Source: Paenibacillus aceti (GTDB taxonomy: Bacteria > Bacillota > Bacilli > Paenibacillales > Paenibacillaceae). From it: a DNA stretch of 64,000 nucleotides. The first letter of the stretch is position 1. Each line of letters starts with the position of its first letter. Below, piece by piece: positions 2,995 to 45,664 of the stretch. Where the stretch lies: positions 2,085,360-2,149,359 of the forward strand of contig NZ_KZ987724.1 in the NCBI RefSeq assembly GCF_003614185.1, read 5' to 3'. The notes under the pieces were generated by a model. The model did not search any database. It was not told the DNA's origin and was given only the letters and a program-made list of their open reading frames with translations. Both the position numbers and the translations under genes were made by a program.

Positions 2995-3183
2995 CTCTAA
3001 CGAAACGTGGTAACGCTATTTGCACCAAAATGGGCCTCCGCCGATTTTAACGAAACTGGGTATCGCTATCGGGGCCATTTTGGCGTCTAAAGCCGGGAAT
3101 TCCCTGAAATAGCGATATGGTGTTTCGTTAGAATTTTTTGACCGCTGTTTTCGCGGAAATAGCGCTCTGGAGTTTCGTTAGAG
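2995..3183. repeat. Four-unit palindromic intergenic element, copy A
   Basis: The 189 bp element has perfect 12-bp inverted ends, CTCTAACGAAAC and GTTTCGTTAGAG. Two direct units of the form TAACGAAAC-N4-ATCGCTAT are followed by two inverted units ATAGCG-N6-GTTTCGTTA. It fills most of the gap between hmp and the first Crp/Fnr gene. Four further copies occur in the window; this one and copy C have the opposite orientation to B, D and E. No open reading frame is apparent. Confidence 0.88.
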
Positions 3184-3269
3184 CTAACTTCTGTCACGCC
3201 ACGCCCCTGCGGGACCAGGTCGGTGCTTCACACACACCACCAGATTCGTGGGGGTTTTATATTTTTAGA

Positions 3270-3776
3270 TTAATCCCTGTTCATCTCTCGTAGCAAGCGA
3301 TTGACCGTCTCACGCCGAATCCCGATCAGTTGACCGATCTCCTCCTGCGTCAGATAATCCGTCAACGGAACACCATTCGCATGCTGATTTAACCATTTAT
3401 TCAACAATTTCAACCGCTCAGCAGGCGTTCCTACCGTTAAATGATCCAGCCTTTCCTGCATAAACCTGATCTTCTCCTGCAATAGCTTGGCGATCTCAAG
3501 CGCCTTCTGCGGATCTTCCTCCAACTCGCGGTACCATCTCTGTGCAGGAATAATCTCTACTTCGCTGCGCACAAGCGCAATAGCCGTGCCATGCGTCTCC
3601 TTCGGAGAAATTAAGGAATGATGCGGAACCAGCTCCCCCGGATAAAGAATATTAAATAACACCAAATTCCCGTTCTCATGCAGCCGAGTTACCTTGAACA
3701 ATCCGCTCTTAACATGATATAGATTCAGGCCTTCATCCCCTTGATGAAACAGAACCTCCCCCTTATGTAAAATCAT
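3270..3776 (-). CDS. Crp/Fnr family transcriptional regulator (paralogue 1)
   Basis: About 168 residues: a short cyclic-nucleotide-type beta-barrel (about 1-85) beginning MILHKGEVLFHQGDEG, a long helix, and a C-terminal winged helix with TQEEIGQLIGIRRETVNRLL. The recognition helix RRETVNR resembles the RETVGR of E. coli CRP, which reads TGTGA. There are no cysteines, so no iron-sulphur cluster as in Fnr. A TTG nine codons upstream is in frame, but the ATG at 3776 has GGGGGG at correct spacing and matches the paralogue at 4901-5401. The signal sensed is unknown. It is a plausible regulator of hmp. Confidence 0.87.
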   Translation of the reverse strand: MILHKGEVLFHQGDEGLNLYHVKSGLFKVTRLHENGNLVLFNILYPGELVPHHSLISPKETHGTAIALVRSEVEIIPAQRWYRELEEDPQKALEIAKLLQEKIRFMQERLDHLTVGTPAERLKLLNKWLNQHANGVPLTDYLTQEEIGQLIGIRRETVNRLLREMNRD

Positions 3777-3814
3777 ATGTGATCCCCCCATTCCCGCGAA
3801 CAACTATATTCCAT

Positions 3815-3823
3815 ATTATAGCA
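3815..3823 (-). promoter_or_regulatory. Extended -10 promoter of the first Crp/Fnr gene
   Basis: TGCTATAAT on the minus strand, an extended -10, lies about 40 bp before the start codon. No good -35 is seen. The same nonamer precedes yitT and the second Crp/Fnr gene. Confidence 0.55.
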
Positions 3824-3872
3824 GAATCCCCCAGAGCCTGTACTCATTCACCAGCCTATAAGCCTTATAAAA

Positions 3873-3911
3873 AGAAAAACGGCGCTGCAGCCCGGGGGCT
3901 CACGCCGTTTT
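3873..3911 (-). terminator. Terminator overlapping the yitT stop codon
   Basis: On the minus strand AAAACGGCG and CGCCGTTTTT pair around an inner AGCCC/GGGCT stem, ending in T-rich sequence. The last yitT codons form the 5' arm. Confidence 0.75.
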
Positions 3912-4559
3912 CTGTTTCATGCCGTAAGAAACCTTGCGCGATGCCACATCTTCACGACCGTATTGAACCGTCCAGGTAATCATCTTACCCGCGATCAATA
4001 CCGCCATAATGGTGAACATCGTCTCTTTAAATGGCAGGTAGAACAAAGATACCATCAGCACGACCGCATCCATCAGGATGAACATCGTACCAATCTTGAT
4101 GCCTGACCACTCACTTAACATTAGTGCCAGAATATCGTCTCCGCCTGATGCTCCGCCAGCACGTAGAACAAGTCCGGCGCCAACCCCTGTCAACAGACCC
4201 GACAGCAACGCTGCCAGCGGCAGATTGCCCGTTAAATCCATCGTCAATGGGGAGAATTGCTCGAACAGCTCATAGAATGCCGAGAATAGCAACGAAGCGA
4301 ATAATGTATTTCCAATAAATTTCCAGCCTCTGAAAAATAAAGCCACAATCATCACGAGGACATCCAGCACGAGCATCGACAGCGCCGGGGACCAATTTAA
4401 TAAATACTTGCCCAACAGCGCCAGACCGACGAAGCCGCCCTCTGACAGACCATTCTGAAAATTAATATGATAATACGCAAATGCCAATATAAAAGAACCA
4501 AACATCAAAATTAATAACTGCTTACCTTCAAATTTCCTTCTTGCTGCTTTCTTCCTCAT
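3900..4559 (-). CDS. YitT family membrane protein
   Basis: The 219-residue protein has about five to six hydrophobic segments after a basic N-terminus (MRKKAARRKFEGKQL) and the family GGASGGDDI motif near residue 135. The cytoplasmic C-terminal part is short; many YitT proteins have a longer DUF2179 tail, which is missing here. Transport of an unknown substrate is suspected for the family but not shown. The gene lies between two paralogous Crp/Fnr regulators on the same strand and has its own promoter, a long leader and a terminator. Confidence 0.82.
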   Translation of the reverse strand: MRKKAARRKFEGKQLLILMFGSFILAFAYYHINFQNGLSEGGFVGLALLGKYLLNWSPALSMLVLDVLVMIVALFFRGWKFIGNTLFASLLFSAFYELFEQFSPLTMDLTGNLPLAALLSGLLTGVGAGLVLRAGGASGGDDILALMLSEWSGIKIGTMFILMDAVVLMVSLFYLPFKETMFTIMAVLIAGKMITWTVQYGREDVASRKVSYGMKQKTA

Positions 4560-4794
4560 AAAGAATCCCTCTTATCGCAGATTGGTTGACCTTACGCCAA
4601 CACCCTGCGAAGAAGATCCTGGAGGACTTCGTACTTCGCATCATCACTCGCTTCTTTCGTAGGGTATTGTCGTAAACCGACGTTCCACGTAAGAAGCTAA
4701 GTGTAAGAGAGATCACAACGTTTCCAAATCGTCCTTTGGGGATTCGTCCTTAAGGGACACATGGTATCCTGATCCTTTCTGTTTTTTTAATTCT
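4560..4794 (-). other. Long 5' leader of yitT, candidate regulatory RNA
   Basis: The transcript predicted from the -10 at 4801-4809 would have a leader of about 235 nt before the yitT ATG. It contains several possible stems, such as CCAAA-GGACGA-TTTGG and GAAG-TCCTCCAGGAT-CTTC. It lacks the T-box signature and the motifs of SAM, purine or yybP-ykoY riboswitches. A 62-codon frame (4528-4716) crosses it but has no convincing start. Confidence 0.35.
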
Positions 4795-4800
4795 ATAATT

Positions 4801-4809
4801 ATTATAGCA
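4801..4809 (-). promoter_or_regulatory. Extended -10 promoter of yitT
   Basis: TGCTATAAT on the minus strand, identical to the elements before both flanking Crp/Fnr genes. It defines the long yitT leader. Confidence 0.5.
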
Positions 4810-4900
4810 CAAATCCGTTCATGACAAAAAATGTTTTATGAACTAATGATTGTGTAAATAAAGGCAGCCAGGCAAAATAGTCCATTCACAAAAATGAACC

Positions 4901-5401
4901 TTAGCCTAGCGTCTTAAGCAGGCGATTGACCGTCTCGCGTCTAACTCCGATCAGCTGACCGATCTCCTCCTGCGTTAAATAATCGGTTAAATGCATGCCT
5001 TCGACATGCTGACTCAGCCAGTTCCCCAGCAGTTTCAGCCGTTCGGCTGGCGTACCGACAGACAGATGATCCAGCCGCTCCTGCATAAACCTCAGCTTCT
5101 CCTGCAGCAGCAGGGCGACCTCCAATGCCTTATCCGGATTATTCTGTAATTCCCGGTACCATACCTTCGCCGGAATGACCTCTACCTCGCTCTGAACGAG
5201 GGCAATCGCCGTTCCAAGCATTTCCTTTGGTGAAACCAGAGAATGGTGCGGAACGATCTCATCGGGATACAAAATATTAAACAATACCACATTTCCGTTC
5301 TCATGCAGTCGTATTACCTTAAATAATCCGCTTTTAATGCGATACAAGTTTACACATTCATCCCCTTGGTGAAATAAAACATCACCTTTGTGCAAGATCA
5401 T
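4901..5401 (-). CDS. Crp/Fnr family transcriptional regulator (paralogue 2)
   Basis: The 166-residue protein aligns over its whole length with the regulator at 3270-3776 (MILHKGDVLFHQGDEC at the start, TQEEIGQLIGVRRETVNRLL at the end) and clearly arose by local duplication. Most differences lie in the sensory barrel and the linker. One cysteine (residue 16) is present, too few for an Fnr-type cluster. The ATG at 5401 has GGGGAG upstream. The near-identical recognition helix predicts the same DNA site as paralogue 1, so the two may compete or respond to different signals. Confidence 0.87.
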   Translation of the reverse strand: MILHKGDVLFHQGDECVNLYRIKSGLFKVIRLHENGNVVLFNILYPDEIVPHHSLVSPKEMLGTAIALVQSEVEVIPAKVWYRELQNNPDKALEVALLLQEKLRFMQERLDHLSVGTPAERLKLLGNWLSQHVEGMHLTDYLTQEEIGQLIGVRRETVNRLLKTLG

Positions 5402-5440
5402 TAACTATCTCCCCATTCACTCCAAAATGCTGTAACCCAT

Positions 5441-5449
5441 ATTATAGCA
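5441..5449 (-). promoter_or_regulatory. Extended -10 promoter of the second Crp/Fnr gene
   Basis: TGCTATAAT on the minus strand, about 40 bp before the start codon, in the same setting as at 3815-3823. Confidence 0.5.
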
Positions 5450-5503
5450 TAATATGCCTGCAGCACCATGGGACGACCTTACCATACTTCAACTGGAAAT
5501 TCG

Positions 5504-5863
5504 TCATTCCCCTCCATATTCTTCCGCGCATTCAGCGCTAACAATATCACGCCACAAAACCCATATCTGTTCGGAGCCCGCCCGCAGACAAATCCGCCGC
5601 CGACCAGAATCTACACGGATCACCGTTCCGCGAAGCTCCTGATCTTCATACTCCCCAAATAAAAGGAGCTTCACCTCTCTTCCTTCCTCCAGAGATTCCA
5701 TTAAAATCCGCGAGACTCTCTCCAGCTCCTGCTCATCCAGCTCTGCCCGCAGCTTCTTCTTCAGAACGCGATTGCTGCTCAGAATCGCTTCCTTATGCTC
5801 CGGCAGCATCATTCGCGAGGATTCCCACAGCCCGTTACCATATAACTTTCCTGTTCTCGTCAT
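5504..5863 (-). CDS. YolD-like protein
   Basis: The 119-residue protein has the YolD-like pattern: a basic N-terminus with GNGLWESSRMMLPEHKEAI, a charged helical middle, then a beta-rich end with GTVIRVDSGRRRICLR. YolD-like proteins are found next to Y-family polymerases in Firmicutes (YqjX beside YqjW in Bacillus) and are thought to be functional counterparts of UmuD. The start overlaps the polymerase stop by 4 nt (ATGA), so the two are translationally coupled. It is the last gene of the SOS operon. Confidence 0.82.
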   Translation of the reverse strand: MTRTGKLYGNGLWESSRMMLPEHKEAILSSNRVLKKKLRAELDEQELERVSRILMESLEEGREVKLLLFGEYEDQELRGTVIRVDSGRRRICLRAGSEQIWVLWRDIVSAECAEEYGGE

Positions 5864-7098
5864 CTATAATGTCCTCCAATCTTGCCGGCCCGGTCTCTGG
5901 CCTGACCCGAAGCTGTCACTGAAGCTGCTCTAAGGATCGCGGATTCTCCGTACCTCCGCTTGATCTCATCCGTCGCACGCTCTAAGGCCTGATATTTGGG
6001 GCGCTCATCGAACAGAGTCAGTTGATATTCATCCGCCCGGGTCAGGTCCGACAGGCTCACCCCCACTTTACGTACAGGCAGATCATCCCAATGCTTGCGG
6101 AACAGCGTCATCACCGCATCATACACTTGATTAGTCACATTCGTTGGATCAGCCAGCTTCCATTGCCGCGAAAATCCGCTAGGACGGTCAAAATCGGCTC
6201 CCCGGCAGCTTACATGGACCACACTGCCCATAACCCCTTTATCCCGGCAGCGGCGGCAGACGAGTTCGGTCAACTCTAGAAGCGGGATCGCAATCGTCTC
6301 CAGAGAATAGTAGTCGCGCGGCAAGGTCATTTCATGGCCGATCGACTTAAGCCCCTGATGACTGTTCGGGTTCACAGGGGAAGGATCGATCCCGTTGGCC
6401 AGCCGCCATAGTACCTCTCCATTCACGCCAAAGCGGGCTTTGAGCCTGGACAGCGGCGTATTGGCCAGATGACCAATCGTCGGCAGGCCCATGTTGAGCA
6501 GATGCCGCTCCATCTGGGAACCGACCATTAGCAAGCTGCGGATCGGCAGCGGCCAGAGCGCCTCCTCCAGCTTCTCTCTCGGCAGCAGATAAATGCCGTC
6601 GGCATTCTTTTTCGCGTAATTATCGCAGGCCATCTTACTGACCGCCTTGTTATAACTGACACCGAAGCGGCAATATACTCCCGTCTTACGTGAAATCTCG
6701 GCCTGAATCATACGGGCCAATGTATCCGGGTCCCCGAACAAGGACAGACTACCGGTCACATCCAAATGCTGCTCATCGATACTATAAGGCTCCACCAGAT
6801 CGGTAAACTGCCTCATAATATTCGTAATCTGCATCGACACATGAATGTATTTCTCCATTCTGGGCCGCATCACAATAAGCTCCGGGCATTTCGCCAGCGC
6901 CGTACCTACGTTCTCCGCCGTCGTCACCCCGTACCGCTTCGCTATCGGGCAAGCTGCCAGCACAATGCCGGAGCGGCGTTCAGGATCACCAGCAACGATT
7001 AACGGACGGTCTTCATACTGCGGATAATCCGCCTTCTCCACACTGGCGTAGAACGACTGGCAATCCCCCATCATAATGACACGCTCTCTCTGCTTCAT
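5860..7098 (-). CDS. Y-family (UmuC/YqjW-type) translesion DNA polymerase
   Basis: This 412-residue protein carries the Y-family catalytic motifs MMGDCQSFYASVE (about residues 9-21) and YSIDEQHLDV (about 104-113), a thumb with helix-hairpin-helix, and a little-finger domain. QLTLF near residue 365 fits the beta-clamp binding motif. The relatives YqjW/UvrX/UmuC replace damaged template bases during SOS. Its start overlaps the preceding gene by 4 nt and its end overlaps the YolD gene by 4 nt. A LexA box controls the operon. It is distinct from ordinary Pol IV (DinB), to judge by the N-terminal MGDCQSFYASVE and by the YolD partner. Confidence 0.92.
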   Translation of the reverse strand: MKQRERVIMMGDCQSFYASVEKADYPQYEDRPLIVAGDPERRSGIVLAACPIAKRYGVTTAENVGTALAKCPELIVMRPRMEKYIHVSMQITNIMRQFTDLVEPYSIDEQHLDVTGSLSLFGDPDTLARMIQAEISRKTGVYCRFGVSYNKAVSKMACDNYAKKNADGIYLLPREKLEEALWPLPIRSLLMVGSQMERHLLNMGLPTIGHLANTPLSRLKARFGVNGEVLWRLANGIDPSPVNPNSHQGLKSIGHEMTLPRDYYSLETIAIPLLELTELVCRRCRDKGVMGSVVHVSCRGADFDRPSGFSRQWKLADPTNVTNQVYDAVMTLFRKHWDDLPVRKVGVSLSDLTRADEYQLTLFDERPKYQALERATDEIKRRYGESAILRAASVTASGQARDRAGKIGGHYR

Positions 7099-7481
7099 GA
7101 GCGATTCCCTTCTTTCACAGGCTGGATCTTCAAGTACCTACGAAGCCGCTGCAGAATTTCCGCCTTGACGAGCCCCCATAGCATGGAGAATTCATAATGA
7201 TATCCGCGGCATAGATAACTGGCTTCAATACCAAGCGTCGTCCTACGTTCCTCATATACCTTCATGCCATGCTTACGCATCCTTTGACGAACCAAGGACA
7301 AATCCGCCGTCGCCCTATTCTGCAACACTTCAATCAGTTCGCCGTACAATTCAGGCAGCTTCAATTCCGCCCGAAGGATCGCCGCACGGTCTCTCTCCAG
7401 CACATCCAGCAGGATCGGAAGCAGGACGGATTCTTTAATGAACTCCGCCTCTTCCGGCGTCTGCCAAGGAATTGGATTCAT
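7095..7481 (-). CDS. Uncharacterised first gene of the SOS polymerase operon
   Basis: The 128-residue protein is not recognised. It looks soluble and largely helical, with a charged middle (RQRMRKHGMKVYEERRT) and aromatic-rich GYHYEFSMLWGLVKAEI near the C-terminus. There is no signal peptide or membrane segment. It is the promoter-proximal gene, directly downstream of two LexA-type boxes, and its stop overlaps the polymerase start by 4 nt, so it should be made together with the polymerase and the YolD protein. The ATG at 7481 lacks a clear Shine-Dalgarno. Confidence 0.7.
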   Translation of the reverse strand: MNPIPWQTPEEAEFIKESVLLPILLDVLERDRAAILRAELKLPELYGELIEVLQNRATADLSLVRQRMRKHGMKVYEERRTTLGIEASYLCRGYHYEFSMLWGLVKAEILQRLRRYLKIQPVKEGNRS

Positions 7482-7526
7482 ACCGGGTCACTTCGCAAGC
7501 TATAATTCATACACTCACCTTCTACA

Positions 7527-7540
7527 AGAACGTTTGTTCT
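7527..7540 (-). promoter_or_regulatory. LexA (SOS) box of the polymerase operon
   Basis: AGAACGTTTGTTCT contains GAAC-N4-GTTC, the core of the Bacillus LexA operator. It lies directly downstream of a TATAAT at 7542-7547 (minus strand), so bound LexA would block initiation. A weaker second site, CGAACAAATATTCC, lies at 7557-7570 upstream of the -10. Confidence 0.8.
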
Positions 7541-7541
7541 T

Positions 7542-7547
7542 ATTATA
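7542..7547 (-). promoter_or_regulatory. -10 box of the SOS operon
   Basis: Perfect TATAAT on the minus strand between the two LexA-type boxes. No strong -35 is evident. Confidence 0.55.
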
Positions 7548-7610
7548 TTCATAATACGAACAAATATTCCCCATGACAACAGGTGATTACTGGATATTCA
7601 GGCAAATTGA

Positions 7611-7650
7611 AAACCGGCCAGAGACCTGGAGGTCCCTAACCGGTTCAAGT
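7611..7650 (-). terminator. Terminator after the methionine aminopeptidase gene
   Basis: On the minus strand AACCGGTT and GGCCGGTT enclose a GACCT/AGGTC inner stem, followed by TTCAATTTG. The T tract is short. Confidence 0.55.
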
Positions 7651-7683
7651 TACCTATAGCGCTATATTAGCTTTGCAGCTATC

Positions 7684-8430
7684 TTAATGTGCTGTGAGAA
7701 TGATTGGCCCATCTGCGGTTAGCGCCAAAGTATGCTCGTATTGAGCAGAGAGCTTGCCGTCAGCTGTTCTGGCTGTCCATTGGTCATCATCGATCGTAAT
7801 CCGGAATGTACCTTGGTTAATCATCGGCTCGATCGTAAATACCATGCCCTCTCTGAGACGCAGGCCTTTGCCGGCCACGCCGATATGCTCGAAGTTCGGA
7901 TCTTCATGTAAGCTACGCCCGACTCCGTGCGCCAGCAAATCGCGTACCACCGAGTAACCATTTGATTCCGCATGCTGCTGAATAGCCGAGGTCACATCGC
8001 CAAGACGATTGCCAGGCAGCGCCTTACTAATGCCAATATCGAGGCATTCCTTCGTAACCCGCATCAGACGTTCCGCTTCTGGACTGATCTGGCCGATGGC
8101 ATAGCACCAGCAGGAGTCCCCGAACCAGCCTTCATATTCAGCGACGATATCCAGCTTCAGCAGATCCCCTTCCTTCAGCGGCTTCTTGTTAGGGAAGCCA
8201 TGGGCGACGACATCATTGACCGAGGCACAGGTTTCAGCCGGGAAACCGTTATATCCCTTAGTGAATTGTTTACCGCCAAGCTTGGTAATATGTCTGGCTA
8301 CGAAATCGTTAATCTCCTGGGTCGTGATCCCCGGCTCGATCAGCTTGGCAACCTCTCGGTGACAGTCAGCCACAATTTGACCAGCGGACTTCAATTCTTC
8401 AATTTCTCGCGCTGATTTCAGTATAATCAT
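7684..8430 (-). CDS. map: Methionine aminopeptidase, type I
   Basis: This 248-residue M24 peptidase removes the initiator methionine from new proteins. The five metal ligands are visible: Asp in LKLDIVAEYEG, Asp in WFGDSC, His in GVGRSLHED, Glu in FTIEPM and Glu in QYEHTLAL. The substrate-binding His is in DVVAHGFP. The ATG follows GGGTGGAAGTAAG. It stands apart from the secY-adk-map ribosomal cluster, so this may be a second copy, like YflG in Bacillus subtilis. That is inference, since the rest of the genome is not visible. Confidence 0.92.
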   Translation of the reverse strand: MIILKSAREIEELKSAGQIVADCHREVAKLIEPGITTQEINDFVARHITKLGGKQFTKGYNGFPAETCASVNDVVAHGFPNKKPLKEGDLLKLDIVAEYEGWFGDSCWCYAIGQISPEAERLMRVTKECLDIGISKALPGNRLGDVTSAIQQHAESNGYSVVRDLLAHGVGRSLHEDPNFEHIGVAGKGLRLREGMVFTIEPMINQGTFRITIDDDQWTARTADGKLSAQYEHTLALTADGPIILTAH

Positions 8431-8488
8431 CTTACTTCCACCCTTCTTTTCCTAAAAAAGCACATTTTTTAAAATTTCCAAACCCGGT

Positions 8489-9172
8489 TTACATCAGCCC
8501 TGCGCATAAAAAGCTGGCGATCCCCTCCGCCTCAGAGCGCAGCGTCCCCCGCCTAAGAGGCAACAACGTACATCCGCACATCGCAGATAGCAGCATTTGC
8601 GCCTTGTTCTCTGCATCTATAGTCATCATATCGGATGGCACTCCTGCTTCACCTTGCTCAAGCACAGTGGACAGAGGAGCGATAATATACTCCAGGTACA
8701 CCTTGGCCAGGGGAGAAGCCTGTTCCTCGGGCAGTTGACGGTAGGCCTCATTCCCCAGCTGACATACCAGATACGCGGCATGATCCTTTGACCAAGCCTT
8801 CAAAATACCGGAAACCAGCACCATCAGCTGCTGATTCTCCTGTTCACTTTCTATCGGTCGGTCTCCAGTTCCGGATACCCTAGCTTCCTCATAAGGAAGT
8901 TTGCCACCTGAGAGCCCCTGTGATTCATCAATCAACTGCTGCACGGTCATAGCCATCCGTTCCATCGCCTGCCACAACAGATCATGCAGCAAATCGATTT
9001 TGTTCTTATAGTAATGGTACACCGTCCCATACCCCAGTCCGGCCACGCGGGCAACATCGCGGATCTCCATCAGCATGCCCTTGTCTAAATACACATCCGC
9101 CGCCGCCGCGACGATTTGGGCAATTCGCCGATTTCGAATTTCTTCATTTTGCGCTTTCGTTCGTGGAGTCAT
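8489..9172 (-). CDS. TetR family transcriptional regulator
   Basis: The 227-residue protein has an N-terminal TetR helix-turn-helix (about residues 14-60, with MEIRDVARVAGLGYGTVYHY followed by YKNKIDLLHDLL) and a helical ligand-binding C-terminal domain. Ligand and targets are unknown. The neighbours, map and a transglutaminase-like gene, are on the same strand, so there is no divergent partner to point to a target. Confidence 0.85.
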   Translation of the reverse strand: MTPRTKAQNEEIRNRRIAQIVAAAADVYLDKGMLMEIRDVARVAGLGYGTVYHYYKNKIDLLHDLLWQAMERMAMTVQQLIDESQGLSGGKLPYEEARVSGTGDRPIESEQENQQLMVLVSGILKAWSKDHAAYLVCQLGNEAYRQLPEEQASPLAKVYLEYIIAPLSTVLEQGEAGVPSDMMTIDAENKAQMLLSAMCGCTLLPLRRGTLRSEAEGIASFLCAGLM

Positions 9173-9273
9173 GTCTGCCTCCTTTTTTGACCTACTATCA
9201 TGTCAATATAAAAATACAGCAATTTCTGTAAAAAAGCAAGCCGGAGAGGTAAGATGATGAAGCCCCATTTCCA

Positions 9274-9306
9274 TAAAAAAGAGGTCGCCTGTTGAACCAG
9301 GCTAAC
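9274..9306 (-). terminator. Terminator of the AraC-transglutaminase pair
   Basis: On the minus strand GCCTG-GTTCAA-CAGGC is followed by GACCTCTTTTTT. It overlaps the stop codon of the transglutaminase-like gene. Confidence 0.6.
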
Positions 9307-10009
9307 CCCTTATCCCTCCCCTGCGGATCACGTCCGTCTGCCGATTAATCCGTTTGCGGAGCAGATTTAACAAGAATTTTTTTACAGTGCCCTTAACATT
9401 GTTATGCTTGGCGAAGAATTCATCAGGATGGTCGAAATACCCTAAATCCTCGGTGATCGAGAAGCTCTGAATATAGGTGCTCTCACCGCGCCAGCATAGA
9501 TTGATGCTCCCCTTATCCTTAATGGCGATTCCGTAGCCGATATACCCTCCATTATAGCTACAGAGTCTATCCTGCACCTGCTTGAGATAAGGGTCATCGA
9601 TAATGACCCCCTCCAGAGCGACCCATTTCCCTTCGAACCATACTTCTGTCCACGCATGAACGATATTCGCAGGGGCAAAGGTATAGACGATACCGGTAAG
9701 CGCGCCCTTTTGCATTTTTTTATCGATATAAAAACCATGAATTCGGCACGGAATCCTCGTGCCCCGCAGCAGCGCCATCAACAGAATGCTCTTCGTGTTA
9801 CATTGCCCGTAGCCGTCAGCAAGCACCTCCGATGCAGCGATATCATCGCCGCGGTTGTATCCGAATTTGATCTGATTTCTTACGTAATCGTAGATTTGAC
9901 GGATTTTTTCGTAGTCGCTAAGCTTCTTCCAGCCCTTCTCCGCAATGAGCTGCTGAATCGATGGATGGTTATAGTCGACTAACGCTGTCGCTTGCAGGAA
10001 TGCTTCCAT
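9302..10009 (-). CDS. Transglutaminase-like (papain-fold) protein
   Basis: About 235 residues with the transglutaminase-core triad region: the Cys in GYGQCNTKSILLMALLR, the His in NIVHAWTEVWFEGKW and a following acidic region (VALEGVIIDD). The domain spans about residues 30-150; the C-terminal part is basic (RKRINRQTDVIRRGG). There is no signal peptide, so a cytoplasmic protease or cross-linking activity is possible. AAGGGG fits the ATG at 10009 better than the two upstream Met codons. Only about 45 bp separate it from the AraC gene upstream, so they form one operon. Confidence 0.75.
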   Translation of the reverse strand: MEAFLQATALVDYNHPSIQQLIAEKGWKKLSDYEKIRQIYDYVRNQIKFGYNRGDDIAASEVLADGYGQCNTKSILLMALLRGTRIPCRIHGFYIDKKMQKGALTGIVYTFAPANIVHAWTEVWFEGKWVALEGVIIDDPYLKQVQDRLCSYNGGYIGYGIAIKDKGSINLCWRGESTYIQSFSITEDLGYFDHPDEFFAKHNNVKGTVKKFLLNLLRKRINRQTDVIRRGGIRG

Positions 10010-10053
10010 GATCATCACCCCTTTTGCTTATAAGTATAAGGTAGAGGGGAGCG

Positions 10054-11784: not shown

Positions 11785-11971
11785 CTCTAACGAAACTCCA
11801 TATCGCTATTTCCCCGAAATCAGCCCCCATTCAAATCTAACGAAACACCATATCGTTATTCGGGTAAAAATCCGCCTTTTCGCCCCATATCTGCCCCAAT
11901 AACGATCCCCAGTTTCGTTAGATTCTGAAATGGCTCCTTTTGACGCAAATAGCGATCCCCAGTTTCGTTAC
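11785..11971. repeat. Four-unit palindromic intergenic element, copy B
   Basis: This 187 bp copy has the same plan as 2995-3183 but in opposite orientation: CTCTAACGAAACTCCATATC first unit, TAACGAAACACCATATCG second, then CGATCCCCAGTTTCGTTA twice. Its ends are CTCTAACGAAAC and GTTTCGTTAC. Confidence 0.88.
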
Positions 11972-12216: not shown

Positions 12217-12312
12217 CACGGCCTGCGAGTACACGGCCTGCAGGGTGCATGGCCTGCGGGGCGCACGGCCTGCGAGTGCACGGCCCGCGGGGTACACGGC
12301 CCGCAGGCCGTG
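12217..12312. repeat. GC-rich minisatellite of six 15-18 bp units
   Basis: Six consecutive units begin CACGGCCTGC or a close variant: 12217, 12232, 12248, 12264, 12279 and 12295. The unit length is 15-16 bp, the last one 18. The tract is far richer in GC than its surroundings and ends beside the recG stop-codon hairpin. A long plus-strand frame across it is an artefact of the repeat. Confidence 0.8.
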
Positions 12313-28918: not shown

Positions 28919-29107
28919 CTCTAACGAAACGTCATGTCGCTATTCGCGTTCAAAAGGGCTGTTTCTAATTTTAATGAAACTGGGGATCGCTATTGGAGCT
29001 AGTTTGGGGACTAAAGTCGAGATTTCCAGCGAATAACGATATGGTGTTTCGTTAAAATTTTTTTACCGCTGTTTTTGGGAAAATAGCGATCTGTAGTTTC
29101 GTCAGAG
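28919..29107. repeat. Four-unit palindromic intergenic element, copy C
   Basis: This 189 bp copy has the same orientation as copy A. Its ends are CTCTAACGAAAC and GTTTCGTCAGAG, with one substitution. It lies immediately upstream of the CRISPR leader. Confidence 0.85.
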
Positions 29108-32551: not shown

Positions 32552-32579
32552 ACTTCACACCATCCTTTTATAGAGGTAA

Positions 32580-32737
32580 TTCAAAAAACCCACTTTTGAT
32601 CACGAAGTAAATCAAGGGAGCATATTCGACTTCGAATCTTCTTTCAATTGGTAATTCAATAATTTCACTTTGGAGCTCGAACCAAACCAAGGAGCGTTCT
32701 CGACATAGAATCTTGAATTCAGCCGGATCCTCTGGCG
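32580..32737. repeat. TTCAAAAAG-family element joined to copy D
   Basis: TTCAAAAAACCCACTTTTGA followed by TCACGAAGTAA opens the element. A second partial start (AATTCAATAATTTCACTTTG) lies at about 32653. It ends TTGAATTCAGCCGG at about 32712-32726, directly before the four-unit element. The same junction, inverted, is at 45474-45500. Confidence 0.6.
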
Positions 32738-32924
32738 CTCTAACGAAACTCCATATCGTTATTGCCACGAAATCAGCACCCATGTAAATCTAACGAAACA
32801 CCATATCGTTATATGAGTGAAAACCCGTCATTTAGTCGCTTTTTGGGCCCAATAGCGATGCCCAGTTTCGTTAGATTTTGAAATCGCCCTTTTTGGTGCA
32901 AATAGCGATACCACGTTTCGTTAC
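32738..32924. repeat. Four-unit palindromic intergenic element, copy D
   Basis: This 187 bp copy has the same orientation as B. Ends CTCTAACGAAAC and GTTTCGTTAC; unit order and internal asymmetry (AACTCCATAT, AACACCATAT, then CGATGCCCAG, CGATACCACG) are kept. Confidence 0.88.
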
Positions 32925-38231: not shown

Positions 38232-38272
38232 ATTCAGGTACTTCCCCCTAATTTACTTGACTCTAAGTTTCG

Positions 38273-39160
38273 TTATTCGAGATTGGCCGCCTGTTCACGA
38301 ATTTTCTCCAGTTCTGCTTTCATCTCGACAACATGGTTGACCAGAGCCAGGTGATTGGCCTTAGAACCAATCGTATTCGTCTCCCGGTTCATTTCCTGTA
38401 TCAAAAAATCCAGCTTCCGTCCAACCGGCCCTTCCGATTGCAATAATCCGCGGCACTGCTCGAAGTGACTCTTCAATCTAATTAGCTCTTCGTCGATATT
38501 GGACCGATCCGCAAATACGGCGACCTCCATCGCGAATCTCTGTTCATCAAAAGCCCCCTCCAACAGTTCGGCGAGTCGCCCTCGGAGCCGGTTGCGATAG
38601 TCCACGACTACTTCCGGCGCCAATCTGACGAGGTCTGCGTGAATCTCCTGCAGCCTGGACAATCGCTGTTCCAGATCAGAGACCAGATGAAGACCTTCTC
38701 GCGCCCGCATAGCGATCATGCCGTCTAAGGCTTCTGCAAGACCTTCCATGAGAACCGTCTCCCACTCTTGATCCGTTGCAGCTCCGTCCATTAGAGGGTC
38801 CGGAGAAATCACCGCCTCCGGTAGCGAGAGCAAATCCTTGGCGCTGAGTGAGGAGTCAAGTCCATAATTCTGCTTCAGCTCTTCATTCGCCCGTAAATAA
38901 GCTTCAATGACCGGACGATTTAGTACGAAGGGTGAGGAGGTGTCATCTTCCTTCTCCTTACCTATGAACACGTCAATTCTACCACGCTTGACATGTTCCT
39001 GTACTAATCGTCGCAGTTTATCCTCATAGCACGTCCACTCTCGGGGCATCCGAAGTACAACCTCAGAATACCGATGATTGACAGATTTGATTTCAAATTG
39101 AATGTTATAGCCGCCGTAATGTCTGGCGGAACCACCGTACCCAGTCATACTGTGAGACAT
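38273..39160 (-). CDS. YicC family endoribonuclease
   Basis: About 295 residues with the YicC N-terminus MSHSMTGYGGSAR, the SVNHRYSEVVLRMPRE segment, and the conserved C-terminus GRKLDFLIQEMNRETNTIGS. The family (YloC in Bacillus) degrades RNA. It precedes remA and gmk as in Bacillus. The ATG at 39160 is preferred over the two codons before it by family match. Confidence 0.92.
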   Translation of the reverse strand: MSHSMTGYGGSARHYGGYNIQFEIKSVNHRYSEVVLRMPREWTCYEDKLRRLVQEHVKRGRIDVFIGKEKEDDTSSPFVLNRPVIEAYLRANEELKQNYGLDSSLSAKDLLSLPEAVISPDPLMDGAATDQEWETVLMEGLAEALDGMIAMRAREGLHLVSDLEQRLSRLQEIHADLVRLAPEVVVDYRNRLRGRLAELLEGAFDEQRFAMEVAVFADRSNIDEELIRLKSHFEQCRGLLQSEGPVGRKLDFLIQEMNRETNTIGSKANHLALVNHVVEMKAELEKIREQAANLE

Positions 39161-39181
39161 GAACATCACATCCGTTACCCT

Positions 39182-39210
39182 ATTGTAATTGATAATTATG
39201 AACGAGACAA
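39182..39210 (-). promoter_or_regulatory. Promoter of yicC-remA-gmk-rpoZ
   Basis: TTGTCT (39205-39210) and TACAAT (39182-39187) on the minus strand are 17 bp apart. The -35 lies in the last codons of the gene upstream. Confidence 0.6.
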
Positions 39211-41094
39211 GTGGGAAGCCCGGTGTAATGACTTCTCATGAACATAATTTGTGAGAGCTACCGTCATTTCATAGAACATGAACGGAGTCATCAGATAAAT
39301 ACCATTAAAATGCTGCAGCGCCGTATCCAACAGTTCCTTGGCTATCTCAACGCCCATGGCGCGTCCTTCCGCTCCCTGCAGGCCTTCCATCCGCTTGAGG
39401 ATCGACTCAGGCAAGGTAATGCCCGGGACCTCATTATGGAGATATTCAGCGTTCTTGCCACTCGCAAGCGGCATAATGCCAAGGAAGATCGGAATATCCA
39501 AATGAGCGGTCGCCTCGCGAATCGCCACGATCAGCTCAGGATTATAGACCGGCTGAGTCATGATGTAATCCGCACCAGAAGCGATCTTCTTCTCCAACCG
39601 CTCCACCGCCTTGTTCAGATGCTTCACGTTCGGGTTGAAGGCGGCGCCGATGATGAAATTGGCCCGATGCTTCAGCGGCTTGCCCGAGAAGGCAATCCCT
39701 TCATTAAGCTGCTTGATCATGCGTATAATTTCAAAGGAAGTAAGATCATAAACCGAGCTTGCTCCGGGCAGATCCCCGAAGCGGGCCGGATCTCCGGTCA
39801 CGGCAAGGATATGATCGATGCCGAGTGCGTCGAAGCCCATCATATGCGACTGTGTACCGATCAGATTGCGATCCCGGCAAGCGATATGAATCAGCGGTCT
39901 TAGGCCCAAATCGGAATGTACCTTGGAGCCCAGCGCCATGTTGCTCATCCGTGTTACAGCCAATGAGTTGTCCGCCAGCGTCAACGCATCGATCCCCGCC
40001 TCCTTAAGAGCCGCTGCGCCTGTCATGAACTTGCCAATATCGAGATCCCGCGGAGGGTCGAGCTCGACAATGACCGTATGGCGCTCCTTCACCAGCTCCA
40101 CAATGTTCTGAGCCTTGCGTGCCTGCTGGCAGTCACAACGGTCATTCTCATTCTTTGGCCCATATTCAAGCGCCTGTATTGATTCACGGATTGCCGGAAG
40201 GGGGTGACCTTCATCCAGTGGCACAGGATCGTACTCTTCGAGCGCCCTGGCTACAGCTGCAATATGCTCCGGTGTTGTCCCGCAGCAGCCTCCGATAAAT
40301 CTTGCGCCCAAATCAGCAAAAGTTACCGCACATTCCCCAAAGTAAGCGGGAGTGGCCCCATATACATATTCTCCATCTACATAATCCGCCAAACCTGCAT
40401 TTGGAAATACGGACAATGGGATATTCAGCGGACCGTTCAATTTCTCCATGACACTCATGATACCCTTCGGACCGGAATGGCAATTGAAGCCGAGCACATC
40501 GGCACCTTCCGCCTGGAGAATCCCGAAGGCTTCTTCAATGGAATACCCGTCCAATGTTCTGCCCAGATGATCCACCGCAAATTGGCAAAAGACCGGAAGC
40601 TGTGTCAAATGACGAGCCCGTCCCAGCGCCAGACGCATCTCTTGCAAATCATAGAATGTCTCCAGAATGAGCGCATCCACATCCTCTGTCAGAAGGGCGG
40701 ACATCTGCTCCTCGAAATAGTTCGCCAATTCCTGGTTGGTCACGTTAATCCGCTTCCCGCCCCGGATTGTACCTACGGCACCGGCGACAAAGCGATCAGC
40801 TCCGGCAGCCTGCCTGGCAATCCGCACGGCAGCACGATTGATATCCGCTACCTGCTCCTCCAGACCAAATTTGGATAATTTATAGTAATTGGCGGAGAAT
40901 GTATTCGTCTCTATTAAGCTCGCACCTGCATCAATATAGCGGCGGTGTACATCCTGAATTACCTCAGGACGGGTCAAATTCATCTCTTCATAGGAAATGC
41001 CGACAGAGAAGCCTAGCTGGTACATATACGTACCGAGGGCTCCATCGCCGATCAGAACTTCATTCTGCCAAGCTTGACGCAGATCTGGCCTCAT
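39196..41094 (-). CDS. yitJ: Bifunctional homocysteine S-methyltransferase / methylenetetrahydrofolate reductase
   Basis: This 632-residue fusion has an N-terminal homocysteine methyltransferase barrel (about 1-300) with GDGALGTYMYQLG, the zinc-binding GFNCHSGP and FIGGCCGTTPEH, and a C-terminal MetF domain (about 330-620) with IVELDPPRDLD, DNSLAVTRM and YIMTQPVYNPE. It would make methyl-THF and pass a methyl group to homocysteine. AAGGAGGT precedes the ATG. Bacillus yitJ has a SAM riboswitch; the 170 bp upstream here is too short and shows none. Confidence 0.93.
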   Translation of the reverse strand: MRPDLRQAWQNEVLIGDGALGTYMYQLGFSVGISYEEMNLTRPEVIQDVHRRYIDAGASLIETNTFSANYYKLSKFGLEEQVADINRAAVRIARQAAGADRFVAGAVGTIRGGKRINVTNQELANYFEEQMSALLTEDVDALILETFYDLQEMRLALGRARHLTQLPVFCQFAVDHLGRTLDGYSIEEAFGILQAEGADVLGFNCHSGPKGIMSVMEKLNGPLNIPLSVFPNAGLADYVDGEYVYGATPAYFGECAVTFADLGARFIGGCCGTTPEHIAAVARALEEYDPVPLDEGHPLPAIRESIQALEYGPKNENDRCDCQQARKAQNIVELVKERHTVIVELDPPRDLDIGKFMTGAAALKEAGIDALTLADNSLAVTRMSNMALGSKVHSDLGLRPLIHIACRDRNLIGTQSHMMGFDALGIDHILAVTGDPARFGDLPGASSVYDLTSFEIIRMIKQLNEGIAFSGKPLKHRANFIIGAAFNPNVKHLNKAVERLEKKIASGADYIMTQPVYNPELIVAIREATAHLDIPIFLGIMPLASGKNAEYLHNEVPGITLPESILKRMEGLQGAEGRAMGVEIAKELLDTALQHFNGIYLMTPFMFYEMTVALTNYVHEKSLHRASHLSRS

Positions 41095-41220
41095 AAGAGT
41101 ACCTCCTTATTGTAAGATAATAGAACGAATAACGAATGGTATATATGAACTACCTATCTAATCTTCGCCTTAGTTTCATATTAATTTAACATAATTTCCG
41201 CCAATTGATAAGGAGAAGGC

Positions 41221-41246
41221 AAAAAAGGCCCGAAGGCCTTTTTCAG
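41221..41246 (-). terminator. Terminator of dapF
   Basis: AAAAAGGCC-TTCG-GGCCTTTTTT on the minus strand, with T runs on both strands. Confidence 0.85.
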
Positions 41247-41263
41247 TACATCATCCAATTAAA

Positions 41264-42097
41264 TTATTCAACCGCGCCATGGTACACGATTTCCGCCGGG
41301 CCCGTCATATACACATGATTATCGCTGGGGTCCCATTCGATATAGAGATCTCCGCCTTGCAAGCCGACCCAAGCCTTACGCCCGGTATAACCGTTCAACA
41401 CGGAGGATACCAAGGTGGCACAGGCTCCGCTGCCACAGGCCAGCGTTGGGCCAGCACCACGCTCCCATACCCTCATCTCAATCCGTTCAGGTGAAGTCAC
41501 AGTCGCGAACTCTACATTCGTTTTTCTCGGAAAATAAGGATGTGCCTCCAGCTGCGGCCCCCACTTCTCCAGCTCAAAGCGCGGCGCATCATCCACATAA
41601 ATGACGCAGTGCGGATTCCCCATGGATACCGCCGTGAAGCTGAACCTGCGCCCGGTAGTCTCGATTGGATGGCCTATAACGGCTTCTCCCTCCAATGTGG
41701 TCGGAACCCTCCTCCCCTCCAGAATCGGTTCGCCCATATCGACTCGCACATTTTTCACAACTCCATCCTCTATCTGAAGCCGAACCTCCTGCACCCCTGC
41801 GCCGAGAGTCTCGAACGTCATCACTTGCTTATCCGTATGGCCTGCTTCATAGACATATTTGGAGACACAGCGGATCGCATTCCCGCATTGCTCAGCCTCC
41901 GTGCCGTCCGAATTAATAATCCTCATTCTATAATCGGCCCGATCCGACGGCAGTATGAACACCAGACCATCCGCCCCGACGCCAAAATATCTGTTGCACC
42001 ATCTTATAGCTAACTCCGAAACGTTCTGCGGCAATTCCTTCTCCCCATAGAACACCAGGAAGTCATTGCCCAGCCCGTGCATTTTCGTAAATTCCAT
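41264..42097 (-). CDS. dapF: Diaminopimelate epimerase
   Basis: The 277-residue enzyme carries its two catalytic cysteines in EQCGNAIRC and LACGSGACAT, and starts FTKMHGLGNDFLVF. It converts LL- to meso-diaminopimelate for lysine and peptidoglycan. It stands between the P-type ATPase and the yitJ-type gene with its own terminator. Confidence 0.96.
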   Translation of the reverse strand: MEFTKMHGLGNDFLVFYGEKELPQNVSELAIRWCNRYFGVGADGLVFILPSDRADYRMRIINSDGTEAEQCGNAIRCVSKYVYEAGHTDKQVMTFETLGAGVQEVRLQIEDGVVKNVRVDMGEPILEGRRVPTTLEGEAVIGHPIETTGRRFSFTAVSMGNPHCVIYVDDAPRFELEKWGPQLEAHPYFPRKTNVEFATVTSPERIEMRVWERGAGPTLACGSGACATLVSSVLNGYTGRKAWVGLQGGDLYIEWDPSDNHVYMTGPAEIVYHGAVE

Positions 42098-42132
42098 CTA
42101 ACCCCACTCCACTCCCTAGAACTTGATGTACA

Positions 42133-42205
42133 TCCAAAAAGGCGAGTTGGTCTTCAGCACAGAAGCTTGTGCTTCTTCGTGATCAAACACGGACTTTTTG
42201 AACTA
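42133..42205. repeat. TTCAAAAAG-family intergenic element
   Basis: A 73 bp element with ends TCCAAAAAGGC and GACTTTTTGAA and an inner CACAGAAGC/GCTTCTTCGTG hairpin, between the ATPase gene and dapF. GATCAAACACGGACTTTTTG matches the right ends of other copies. Confidence 0.6.
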
Positions 42206-42255
42206 ACTCTGTATGGGGTTAGTCTATATTTCACGGGGAGCAAAGGGTATTGATT

Positions 42256-45057
42256 TTATGCACGAATATTTGTACTTTTCGCCGAGATCATCTGTCTTGG
42301 GCCATTATACTTGCGGCGGCGCCCCGACCAGACACTACCCGCTCCGAGCAGGAAGGTAGGAATGCCGGCAGCGACCAGACTCAGCGCCCATTCTCTGGCT
42401 CCCAGCGGAACCGTCTTGAAGATCGGCTGCAACGCCTCAATATACATAACGCCGAGCAGCAGCAGTATAGAGGATAGCACCGCGACTACCAGATAACGGT
42501 TCTGCAGGATGTTACGGTGGAAGATGGAGCGTGAGCTGCGGCAATCGAACACATGGATAAGCTGAGCCATGACCAGGGTTACAAAGGCAACCGACTGCGC
42601 CTTGGCAAGCTGCGCCGGATCATCCGGCGCAAGACGCAGCGTCAGCCAGAAAGCCCCGAGTGTGCAGAAGCCGATGAGCAGGCCGCGGCTAATGATCTTC
42701 CAGCCCAGCCTGCGGGCGAATATGTTCTCCCTCGCTCCGCGCGGCTTATGCTCCATCAAATCCTTCTCCGGCTGATCCACGCCCAGCGCCATGGCCGGGA
42801 GCCCGTCTGTGACGAGGTTCACCCACAGAATCTGAATCGGCAATAGCGGTAGCGGCAGTCCAGCCAGCATGGCGAAGAGCATCGTCAATATTTCACCTAC
42901 ATTAGAAGCGAGTAAATAACGGATAAATTTCCGGATGTTCTCATAAATATTGCGGCCCTCTTCAATCGCAGACACGATGGAGGAGAAATTATCATCGCTT
43001 AGAACCAGAGACGAGGCTTCTTTGGTTACATCCGTCCCCGTAATTCCCATCGCGATCCCGATGTCCGCCGCCTTAATTGCGGGCGCATCATTCACCCCAT
43101 CGCCCGTCATCGCAACGACATGGCCTTTACGCTGCAATGATTTCACGATCCGCAGCTTATGCTCGGGGGCAACCCGGGAGTAGACATAGATCTGGTCGAC
43201 TTGGCGATCCAGTTCGTCGTCGCTTAGCGCAGCCAGCTGCTTCCCTGACATAGATTGTCCGCCCCGGGGGATAATGCCCAGATCGGCAGCGATCGCTTCG
43301 GCAGTCAATCCATGGTCGCCCGTAATCATCACGGTCTTGATGCCGGCGCGGCGGCAGACAGAGATCGCTTCGCGCGCTTCACGGCGCGGCGGATCGATCA
43401 TCCCAGCCAATCCGATGAAGATGAGCTGACATTCGACATCATCTTCATGATCTGCCGGATCATCCGGCCGCAAGTCGCGATAGGCCATTCCGAGCACCCG
43501 CAGCGCACTCCTGGCCATCCCTTCGTTAGCAGCCTGCACACGCTGGCGGAAGGTTCCTGTAAACGGGACGACCTTGCCATCCCATAGAATATACGCACAC
43601 TTCTCCATCAGCATATCAGGCGCTCCCTTGACCAGCGCCATCTTGCCGCCCTGGTGAGATACAATCACTGACATCCGTTTGCGATCCGAATCAAAGGGCA
43701 TTTCCTTAACCCGGGTATACATGCTACCGAGCGTTCCGGGTGACAATCCCATCTTCGCAGCCAGTGTTACAAGTGCACCTTCCGTCGGATCACCTTTTAG
43801 CTTCCATCCTGATCCTAAGTTCTCTTCCCGATCCTTGCCTTTGCTCTTCGCCTGCTGCTCACTATCATCTTCATAGATGACTGCATTTCCACACAGAGAG
43901 CTGACCTGGAGCATGCGACGCAAGGTCTGATCCTTCTTAAGATCGACCGCTTGACCCTGCTCTAATATATGACCGACCGGTTCATAACCGTCTCCGGTCA
44001 CCTCCAGCGTTCTACCTTCAAGCCAAATTTGGGTCACCGTCATTTTGTTCTGCGTCAAGGTTCCCGTCTTATCCGAGCAAATGACGGAAGCGCAGCCGAG
44101 CGTCTCTACGGACGGCAGCTTGCGGACGATCGCTTTGCGCTTGATCATTCGCTGCACCCCTAGCGCCAGCGCAATGGTTACGATGGCAGGCAATCCTTCC
44201 GGAATAGCGGCTACTGCCAGACTCACCCCGGCGAGGAACATCGACCCCATCGGCTGCCCATGCATAATGCCGACAAGGACAACCAATATAGTTAGTCCCA
44301 AAGAAAGGTAAATTAAAATTTTGCCCAATTGCTCCAGGCGCCGCTGTAGTGGGGTTTCCTGTGAATCGGTGTTCTGAATCAGATCGGCTATTTTACCCAT
44401 TTCAGTGTTCATGCCTGTACGTATAACAATCCCTCGTCCACTGCCACGGGTCACCATCGTTCCCATGAAGCCCAGGTTTTTCTGATCTCCCAGCGGTACC
44501 TCCGCTTCCCGGAGTACCCCGGCATGCTTGCCCACAGGATGCGATTCTCCGGTCAATGCGGACTCCTCAACATCCAGGCTGTTCGCGGACAGCCATCGCA
44601 CATCTGCAGGAATGCGGTCGCCGCTCTCGACCATAATAATGTCGCCGGGGACAAGTTCCTTAGCTGGAATATGCTCGACAGACCCATTGCGCAAGGCTTT
44701 GGCGCTGGGGGCAGATAACTGCTTCAGTGCGCGCAGCGAGCGCTCGGCCCGGAATTCCTGAATGAATCCGAGCACCCCGTTCAGGATCACAATAGCAATA
44801 ATGGTAATGGCGTCTAAATATTCGCCGAGAATTCCTGATATGAGCGTCGCGCCCATCAATACGAGCATCATAAAATCCTTAAACTGGTTCAGAAATAGCA
44901 GCAGCGGAGAGATTCGTTTCCCCTCTGACAGTTCATTCCAGCCGCTCTGCTCCCGTCTCCTCTGCGCCTCATCCCGGGTCAGGCCCTGCTCGCGCTTCAC
45001 ATTCAACAGCTCCAGAAGCTCTTCCCCATTCCACTGGTGCCAGTTTTTTTGTTCCAT
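42256..45057 (-). CDS. yloB: Calcium-transporting P-type ATPase
   Basis: The 933-residue P2A-type pump has the TGES actuator motif ([10 protein letters not shown]), the phosphorylation motif [36 protein letters not shown] and [17 protein letters not shown], plus about ten membrane helices including the calcium-binding [10 protein letters not shown]. YloB of Bacillus is the close counterpart and is linked to spores. Its position upstream of yloC (yicC) agrees, although yitJ- and dapF-type genes lie between. Charged insertion [18 protein letters not shown] near residue 400 is in the nucleotide domain. Confidence 0.93.
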
Positions 45058-45222
45058 CTCCTTCTTCCCCTCCCGTATTTTGTGCGATAAACAGCGTGAG
45101 GCTTTTCCACCTAGGGTAAATGTATTCCGGCTAGTCCCGAATTATCACAGAAGAAGCTCTTAAGTTTTTCACACAAGTATGGCATCATAGAAGAAGCAAG
45201 ATATCGAAGAGATGAGGATATG

Positions 45223-45664
45223 CTCAAAAAGTCGCTGTTCAGCGTTGAAGCTGATGCATTCGATATGCGTTTTAATGCGTTTTTTGTCTAACGAAACTAC
45301 ATATCGCTATTTCCGCGTAAACAGTGGCAAATTGAATCTAACGAAACACCATATCGCTATTCAGAGGAAATGAGGGCGTTTAGCCTTTAATTTGCTTCAA
45401 TAACGATACCCAGTTTCGTTAAAATTTCTGTCAGCCCATTTTGGCCCAAATAGCGATACCACGTTTCGTTAGCGGAAGGCCCGGCTGAATTCAAGATTCG
45501 ATGTCGAATAGGCTTCCTGATTGACCTCGTGTTAGATATAGAATTTATTCGTTATCAGCGGAGGCTGATGAAATTCTATATCGCAAGAAAGCCTACCTTT
45601 GAACCGCGGTCGCTCATCCTTGAATTGCTTCGATTGGTTTTCTTATCAAAAGTGGCTTTTTGAA
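45223..45664. repeat. Composite repeat: TTCAAAAAG-family ends around copy E
   Basis: The left end CTCAAAAAGTC (45223) and the right end GGCTTTTTGAA (ending 45664) belong to the TTCAAAAAG family. The four-unit element occupies 45286-45473 inside. After it comes GGCCCGGCTGAATTCAAG, the inverse of the sequence before copy D. A GATATAGAATTTATTC/GAAATTCTATATC inverted pair lies at 45535-45583. Confidence 0.65.
45286..45473. repeat. Four-unit palindromic intergenic element, copy E
   Basis: About 188 bp, same orientation as B and D. Starts GTCTAACGAAAC and ends GTTTCGTTAG. Confidence 0.87.

Follow-up and report, generated by a model that had tools for sequence, protein, structure and literature searches.

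Tetrads of palindromic units dispersed between genes in Paenibacillus aceti and its relatives: a candidate family of protein docking arrays

Introduction

Short repeats dispersed between bacterial genes have been described in several forms. Most repetitive extragenic palindromes (REPs) carry a GTAG or CGTC tag, although untagged REP-like families also exist (PMC3733652, in part). The families bcr1, RUP, NEMIS and ERIC are miniature inverted-repeat transposable elements (MITEs) (PMC3733652, in part). Repeats of another kind mark the ends of IS21-type insertion sequences: in IS5376, 23 bp lie between the direct repeats, and the complete terminal sequences measure 55 bp (PMC10122671, in part). 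Neither Paenibacillus nor Cohnella is named in the main text of the REP papers searched for these terms. Here, we describe an intergenic DNA element, the tetrad, which consists of four palindromic units and is present in five copies in a 64,000-nucleotide stretch of the Paenibacillus aceti genome (contig NZ_KZ987724.1, positions 2,085,360 to 2,149,359; hereafter the window).

The tetrads are tentatively interpreted, at somewhat less than an even chance, as dispersed intergenic DNA elements acting as docking arrays, which would have been dispersed long ago and then kept.

Architecture and Abundance of the Tetrad

The five copies, 187–189 bp in length, were confirmed at the positions given in the original prediction, which had been made from the letters of the window, and were recovered independently by repeat finding (families D4 and D6; inverted pairs I1–I7). 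Each copy contains two direct and then two inverted units, as had been predicted; however, TAACGAAAC and TATCGCTAT, taken there for two units, are the halves of one 22-bp unit. The unit consensus in the window lineage is TAACGAAAC-NNNN-TATCGYTAT, with some mismatches, and the unit starts are spaced 50, 61 and 50 bp in all five copies. At the family level, the architecture comprises four 21–22 bp units TAACG-N11-CGYTA, whose centres are separated by 50, 62 and 50 bp and which face inward in pairs, one pair from each side.

The genome of P. aceti (G000) contains 579 matches to the 22-bp unit at no more than one mismatch and 674 (339 + 335) at no more than two, while the reversed-pattern control at the latter threshold gives 6 (0 + 6). 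Division of the unit matches, listed in part, by four leads to an estimate of about 150–170 elements. When copy 5 was used as the only BLAST query, the matches scored (40 of 210 candidates) were mostly full-length and located around the chromosome. Forty-three four-unit elements of this genome were parsed, mostly from among the best matches of that search, with a few incomplete elements left out. The unit starts follow the exact 50/61/50 spacing in 38 of them and are off by 1–2 bp in the remaining five. The outer units are inverted and constitute terminal inverted repeats, and the flank consensus of 38 elements is a weak cTC / gA around TAACG..CGTTA. None of 51 distinct contexts lies inside an open reading frame (ORF) of at least 90 aa, and a few element ends extend into a predicted ORF, by 53 bp at most.

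Within the genus, matches of any kind to the unit of the window were found in 14 of 41 genomes. Four of these stand out: P. aceti itself and its high-copy relatives Paenibacillus sp. GM2 (G032), with the same number of 579 matches, G011 (265) and Paenibacillus sp. D2_2 (G031; 179).

Conservation in Place between Species

Copies of P. aceti (n = 38) differ pairwise by 7.7% on average in the unit cores and by 40% in the spacers; for nearest neighbours, the values are 6.7% and 26%. The earlier suggestion that the arms are selected and the loops drift was supported. Since decayed units could escape detection, test sites were chosen through flanking homology. At the three sites common to relatives (L128:11443, L128:17299 and copy 5), the cores differ by 0–10% and the spacers by 16–38%, and the lengths are kept. 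Ten aligned orthologous pairs contain 298 substitutions and 0 gaps within the element versus 466 substitutions and 80 gaps in the 120-bp flanks; these pairs share branches, and are thus not independent, and some flanks hold coding sequence. At the three sites tested, the elements are conserved in place. Intact elements, putatively orthologous, are also found for L128:9353 in GM2 and for L129:2503 in all three relatives, and a variant element with TAACGGAA units is located in G011 at the place of L129:11800.

Unit Structure and Covariation

The unit consensus varies by species. Several species of Cohnella and Paenibacillus, as well as Ammoniphilus, have a near-palindromic unit of 21 bp, for example TAACGGAAC-nnn-GTTCCGCTA. 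Covariation was analysed in 112 distinct units (78 rows among the matches listed) from 20 genomes of one genus, Cohnella (g2). The inner pairs 6-16, 7-15 and 8-14 are Watson–Crick in 76, 79 and 73% of the units, compared with 47, 31 and 36% in shuffled sets, and none of 2000 shuffles reached any of these values. All three inner pairs are complementary in 65 of the 112 units (shuffles: mean 6.3, maximum 15), which feature nine different inner arms. When one unit per genome and arm was taken, 17 of 41 were paired at all three positions (mean 1.7, maximum 6), and a smaller, hand-picked set contained 26 fully paired units among 54 (mean 2.5, maximum 9). The inner arms vary yet stay complementary. 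Hence, in Cohnella, the TAACG/CGYTA ends and the self-complementarity are kept and the inner sequence is not.

A subfamily change at unit position 6 affects all four units together (A 135, G 9, C 1), with position 15 nearly in step, which is the behaviour expected of units recognised by a single partner. The A/T tracts of the spacers are phased at 10.0 bp. This strength is reached by 13 of 2000 rotated spacers in the 9.75–11 bp band and by 106 of 2000 at any period, so the phasing is suggestive only.

Pairing of unit 1 with unit 4 and of unit 2 with unit 3, as originally predicted, is possible: copy 5 is predicted to fold into one long hairpin (RNA fold z −6.4 on one strand and −6.1 on the other). 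The expected covariation of these arms did not materialise, as no compensatory change was detected among 145 elements. Core complementarity is 0.887 within elements versus 0.878 (random) and 0.893 (nearest) between elements, and the corresponding spacer values are 0.416 versus 0.422 and 0.421. A long-range hairpin kept by compensation was therefore rejected. Covariation is present inside each unit, in another genus (Cohnella), but not between the units of one element.

Distribution among Paenibacillaceae

A looser two-unit pattern was found in 43 of 395 Paenibacillaceae genomes. The loosest one, TAACG-N11-CGNTA occurring twice at 49–51 bp, was found in 191 of the 395 genomes and in 16 of 19 genera, compared to a single genome for the reversed control. 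In a scan of named genomes, the matches listed belong to Paenibacillus, Cohnella and Ammoniphilus species. The ladder of unit centres has steps of 50 and 62 bp, in a ratio of about 2:1, in P. aceti, D2_2, GM2, a metagenomic Paenibacillus and species with other units. The steps are 50 and mostly 61 bp in G008, and 51 and 62 bp in the palindromic group including Ammoniphilus. The named loci were fetched through the pair at about 50 bp, and therefore only the 62-bp step is an independent observation there.

The original prediction knew of no matching named family, and none was found. Neither the window nor four loci from a relative gave any Rfam match at the curated threshold, and no description of a tetrad element was present among the matches listed from the open-licence PubMed Central literature. 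An Rfam match or a lack of other copies had been named in advance as evidence to the contrary; copies are abundant both here and in relatives.

Docking Arrays as the Preferred Reading

The simplest reading of the palindromic character of the units, their exact spacing, the conserved ends and the persistence in place is a retained array of palindromic docking sites, similar to REPs and bacterial interspersed mosaic elements (BIMEs). Each unit, in the form of a palindrome or of an extruded DNA hairpin, would be recognised at the base of its stem (TAACG/CGYTA) by a dimeric protein. With four such docks held at rigid distances, a single closed complex of two-fold symmetry would assemble. Such a complex may bend, wrap or bridge intergenic DNA, and in this way serve chromosome organisation or the insulation of neighbours. 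A putative activity would have spread the elements long ago, after which they were retained. It is the partner protein, the hairpin extrusion and the biological outcome that we infer here. The wider form of this proposal is doubtful: a nucleoprotein ladder common to the whole family and crossing genera, with palindromes at 50-62-50 bp read by structure and not by inner sequence, which would make up a chromosome-organising particle with an undescribed protein. In this form, the geometry is preserved between genera even though the intervening DNA has diverged past recognition. Among the three guesses of the original prediction, a binding array for a chromosomal protein comes closest.

Several observations weigh against docking arrays. 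No binding protein was identified. The search for a cognate gene beside the elements covered 599 flanking ORFs, and the clusters recurring in several genomes look like generic families, e.g., sensor kinases and ABC ATPases (judged by eye from the first residues). Units of the window lineage are palindromic only imperfectly, an A-A mismatch being nearly fixed in them, so that the case for a hairpin depends on another genus. Even in Cohnella, pairs 9-13 and 10-12 are not outstanding, and pair 3-19 is A-C in 59 of 112 units. No compensation was seen within the 145 elements of the window lineage. The constrained sites number only three, and the extraction took exact 50/61/50 orthologues only, though every element-bearing relative had one there. 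Part of the dispersal is fairly recent: two tandem arrays of GM2, 20 kb apart, contain copies only 8.4% different, and one pair in the metagenome-assembled genome (MAG) Fux382 is 9.5% apart (eight elements).

Many copies are also absent at the matching place in relatives, which means that many single sites are dispensable. In the window, this applies to copies 1 and 4 (all three relatives), copy 2 (the two read) and copy 5 (D2_2); elsewhere, it applies to L128:9353 (G011), L129:11800 (D2_2) and L129:18536 (GM2).

Copy Age, Movement and Transposases

The main alternative to docking arrays, which we consider unlikely, is an old MITE family, i.e., a non-autonomous transposon with two transposase-binding sites per end and no gene of its own, moved in trans by a putative transposase, whose changes the unit variants would track. 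The dispersed, intergenic location, the inverted ends and the presence or absence at matching places between species fit this explanation, as does the joint switching of all four units in subfamilies. Copy 1 resembles an insertion at the TA within CTCTAGAG in G011, and the close pairs of GM2 and Fux382 point in the same direction.

Against it, recent movement has left few traces among the copies sampled. In samples of the copies present in each genome, the closest non-local pair of P. aceti has a spacer difference of 14.7% (42 places sampled). In GM2, a non-local neighbour below 15% was found for 8 of 61 places, and the closest pair beyond 50 kb differs by 27.4% in the spacers; in D2_2, the closest pair differs by 36.8% (eight elements). 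Young copies are few among those sampled, and there is little sign of recent long-range spread. Unlike decaying insertions, the units stay conserved at orthologous sites. In GM2, L106, L114, L124, L137 and L182 contain entire tetrads in tandem arrays of regular period, and the arrays of this genome include the places orthologous to copy 5 and L128:17299.

The transposase content of the four high-copy genomes also speaks against this alternative. PF01797 (Y1 transposase, the REP-associated RAYT type) is absent from G011, D2_2 and GM2, and a RAYT-driven REPIN was rejected on that account. P. aceti has 14 Y1 transposase genes (IS200-like, 157 aa, equal score; loci L065–L084). No complete tetrad lies within 1.5 kb of any of them, and the single units found there are two in L084 and one in L082. 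PF13358 (DDE_3, IS630) is absent from all four genomes. IS630-type elements prefer CTAG as a target and duplicate TA; a MITE of this type, suggested by copy 1, was rejected on account of that absence. Two other candidates failed: IS21-like ends, where the spacing of direct repeats differs, and an integron attC-like site, considered on its box motifs only, for which the units are too short.

All units begin and end in TA, and no reproducible target duplication was seen in the flanks, which are highly diverged. An inspection of the element flanks by eye revealed no obvious recurrent transposase neighbour, the families searched being PF13358 and PF01797. Searches of plasmid and phage collections gave no match to copy 5 at E 0.001. 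With few young copies, no support from either transposase family tested and no reproducible target duplication, the earlier suggestion of a non-autonomous mobile element was not supported, if taken to mean current mobility.

A separate observation concerns G008 (L049–L057, L068, L072, L238–L266), where a multicopy sequence starts exactly at the unit end, at the junction of ..ATTCGTT and GCTATGAACG. All 23 of 23 near-identical places have this junction, a few of them in slightly altered form, and it recurs in a diverged copy in L258. The sequence looks like an insertion that used the tetrad repeat as a target.

RNA, Operator and Mutational Explanations

Two further explanations, a role as RNA and a simple operator array, rank below an old MITE family, and both are given only a small chance. 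According to the former, transcribed hairpins act in untranslated regions. The strong fold predicted for copy 5 on both strands and the compensatory changes in the Cohnella unit arms agree with this explanation, but the exact spacing is unexpected for RNA loops, and the purely RNA structure considered in the original prediction leaves it unexplained. The elements reside between tandem, convergent and divergent genes (36, 12 and 8 of 56 contexts in P. aceti, five counted twice), and neither chromosomal orientation predominates (19 of 38 elements in each). The types of unit pairs bear no consistent G-U strand signature, and the absence of an Rfam match is a further point against an RNA element.

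In a double-stranded operator array, a regulator would bind TAACG-N11-CGYTA through lineage-specific inner contacts, with no hairpin. The fixed spacing, the species-dependent unit consensus and the lack of within-element compensation in the window lineage are all in line with this. On the other hand, two different fully paired inner arms occur at different places of one genome in 3 of the 20 Cohnella genomes (G050, G055 and G062), which is unexpected if one protein reads the inner bases.

It is very improbable that the palindromes owe their perfection to mutation, by template switching at quasi-palindromes, and are otherwise neutral: complementary arms would arise without selection and whole elements are amplified in tandem in GM2, but the invariant TAACG/CGYTA ends, the gap-free spacers and the combination of conserved units with drifting spacers stay unexplained, and the constraint at orthologous sites counts strongly against neutrality.

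Window Copies and Neighbouring Sequences

The coordinates of the five tetrads and their units are listed in Table 1. The CCA-type arms lead on the plus strand in three copies and on the minus strand in two (2995 and 28919).

Table 1. Tetrad copies and their units in the window.
Feature	Position	Strand	Remarks
Tetrad copy 1	2995..3183	−	CCA-type arms on minus strand; aligned flanks of three relatives without element
Copy 1 unit 1	2998..3019	+	0 mismatches
Copy 1 unit 2	3048..3069	+	0 mismatches
Copy 1 unit 3	3109..3130	−	0 mismatches
Copy 1 unit 4	3159..3180	−	1 mismatch
Tetrad copy 2	11785..11971	+	Aligned region of GM2 (G032) and D2_2 (G031) without element
Copy 2 unit 1	11788..11809	+	Unit scan
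Copy 2 unit 2	11838..11859	+	Unit scan
Copy 2 unit 3	11899..11920	−	1 mismatch
Copy 2 unit 4	11949..11970	−	1 mismatch
Tetrad copy 3	28919..29107	−	Adjoins CRISPR array
Copy 3 unit 1	28922..28943	+	1 mismatch
Copy 3 unit 2	28972..28993	+	2 mismatches
Copy 3 unit 3	29033..29054	−	Unit scan
Copy 3 unit 4	29083..29104	−	2 mismatches
Tetrad copy 4	32738..32924	+	Matching place in GM2 (G032), D2_2 (G031) and G011: no unit with <4 mismatches
Copy 4 unit 1	32741..32762	+	Unit scan
Copy 4 unit 2	32791..32812	+	Unit scan
Copy 4 unit 3	32852..32873	−	1 mismatch
Copy 4 unit 4	32902..32923	−	Unit scan
Tetrad copy 5	45286..45473	+	Same place: present in G011, tandem array in GM2 (G032), absent in D2_2 (G031)
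Copy 5 unit 1	45289..45310	+	Unit scan
Copy 5 unit 2	45339..45360	+	Unit scan
Copy 5 unit 3	45400..45421	−	Unit scan
Copy 5 unit 4	45450..45471	−	Unit scan

The checked gene neighbours of the window copies are of housekeeping type. Those of copy 1 encode a flavohaemoglobin-like protein and a regulator resembling Crp; copy 4 is next to the genes for peptide deformylase and PriA, and copy 5 next to those for a cation ATPase and an NFACT protein. For copies 2 and 3, one side each was covered, with RecG and RsmB, respectively.

Several other repeats are present in the window. A second family of about 200 bp (GGAAGGCCCGGCTGAATTC; GAGGAGCGGAGCGTAC..GTACGTGAGCACC), located at 45473–45855, 32569–32740 and 42166–42213, adjoins copies 4 and 5 and has dozens of matches at 75–92% identity in G011, D2_2 and GM2. 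The clustered regularly interspaced short palindromic repeat (CRISPR) array, which extends from 25335 to at least 28454 with 47 matching copies of its reference stretch, is located in a housekeeping gene region, with a kinase and a PP2C phosphatase on one side and RsmB and a deformylase on the other. No cas gene was found among these four flank genes, the ORFs nearest the array not being part of the check. A short tandem repeat of about 16 bp, of the CACGGCCTGCGGGG type, is located between copy 2 and the RecG gene (12217–12310). The stretches 3292–3591, inside the Crp-like regulator ORF, and 4917–5216, inside ORF 4901–5401, are 75% identical.

Comparison with Known Systems

The ends of IS21-type elements such as IS5376 are similar to the tetrad in that each has two direct protein-binding repeats, so that joined ends would read in-in-out-out (PMC10122671, in part). 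In contrast to them, the tetrad is devoid of a gene, and a distance of 50 bp separates its unit centres. With the MITEs bcr1, RUP, NEMIS and ERIC, in so far as the source describes them, tetrads share the non-coding, intergenic and dispersed character and the inverted-repeat ends. They differ in their four internal palindromic units, the few young copies in the sample, the lack of a demonstrated target duplication and the retention in place at shared sites.

The similarity to REPs, BIMEs and REPINs includes imperfect palindromes of about 21 bp, very high copy number, intergenic location, regular composite arrays and stems varying by locus or species. Unlike most REPs, the tetrad family carries no constant GTAG or CGTC tag and has constant TAACG/CGYTA ends on both sides. 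The differences from the REP/RAYT system are the absence of the PF01797 gene from three of the four highest-copy genomes, the fixed 50-62-50 tetrad and the retention at orthologous sites.

Stem and tag serve to classify most REP-like repeats, many of which are linked to RAYT transposases; tetrads lack that tag, and three of four high-copy genomes are missing a RAYT-type gene. For annotation, the family provides a pattern that matches about half of the Paenibacillaceae genomes searched. The unit ends and spacing are kept across genera, and three sites are conserved in place, so that the old question of whether interspersed palindromes persist for a function in place becomes experimentally testable.

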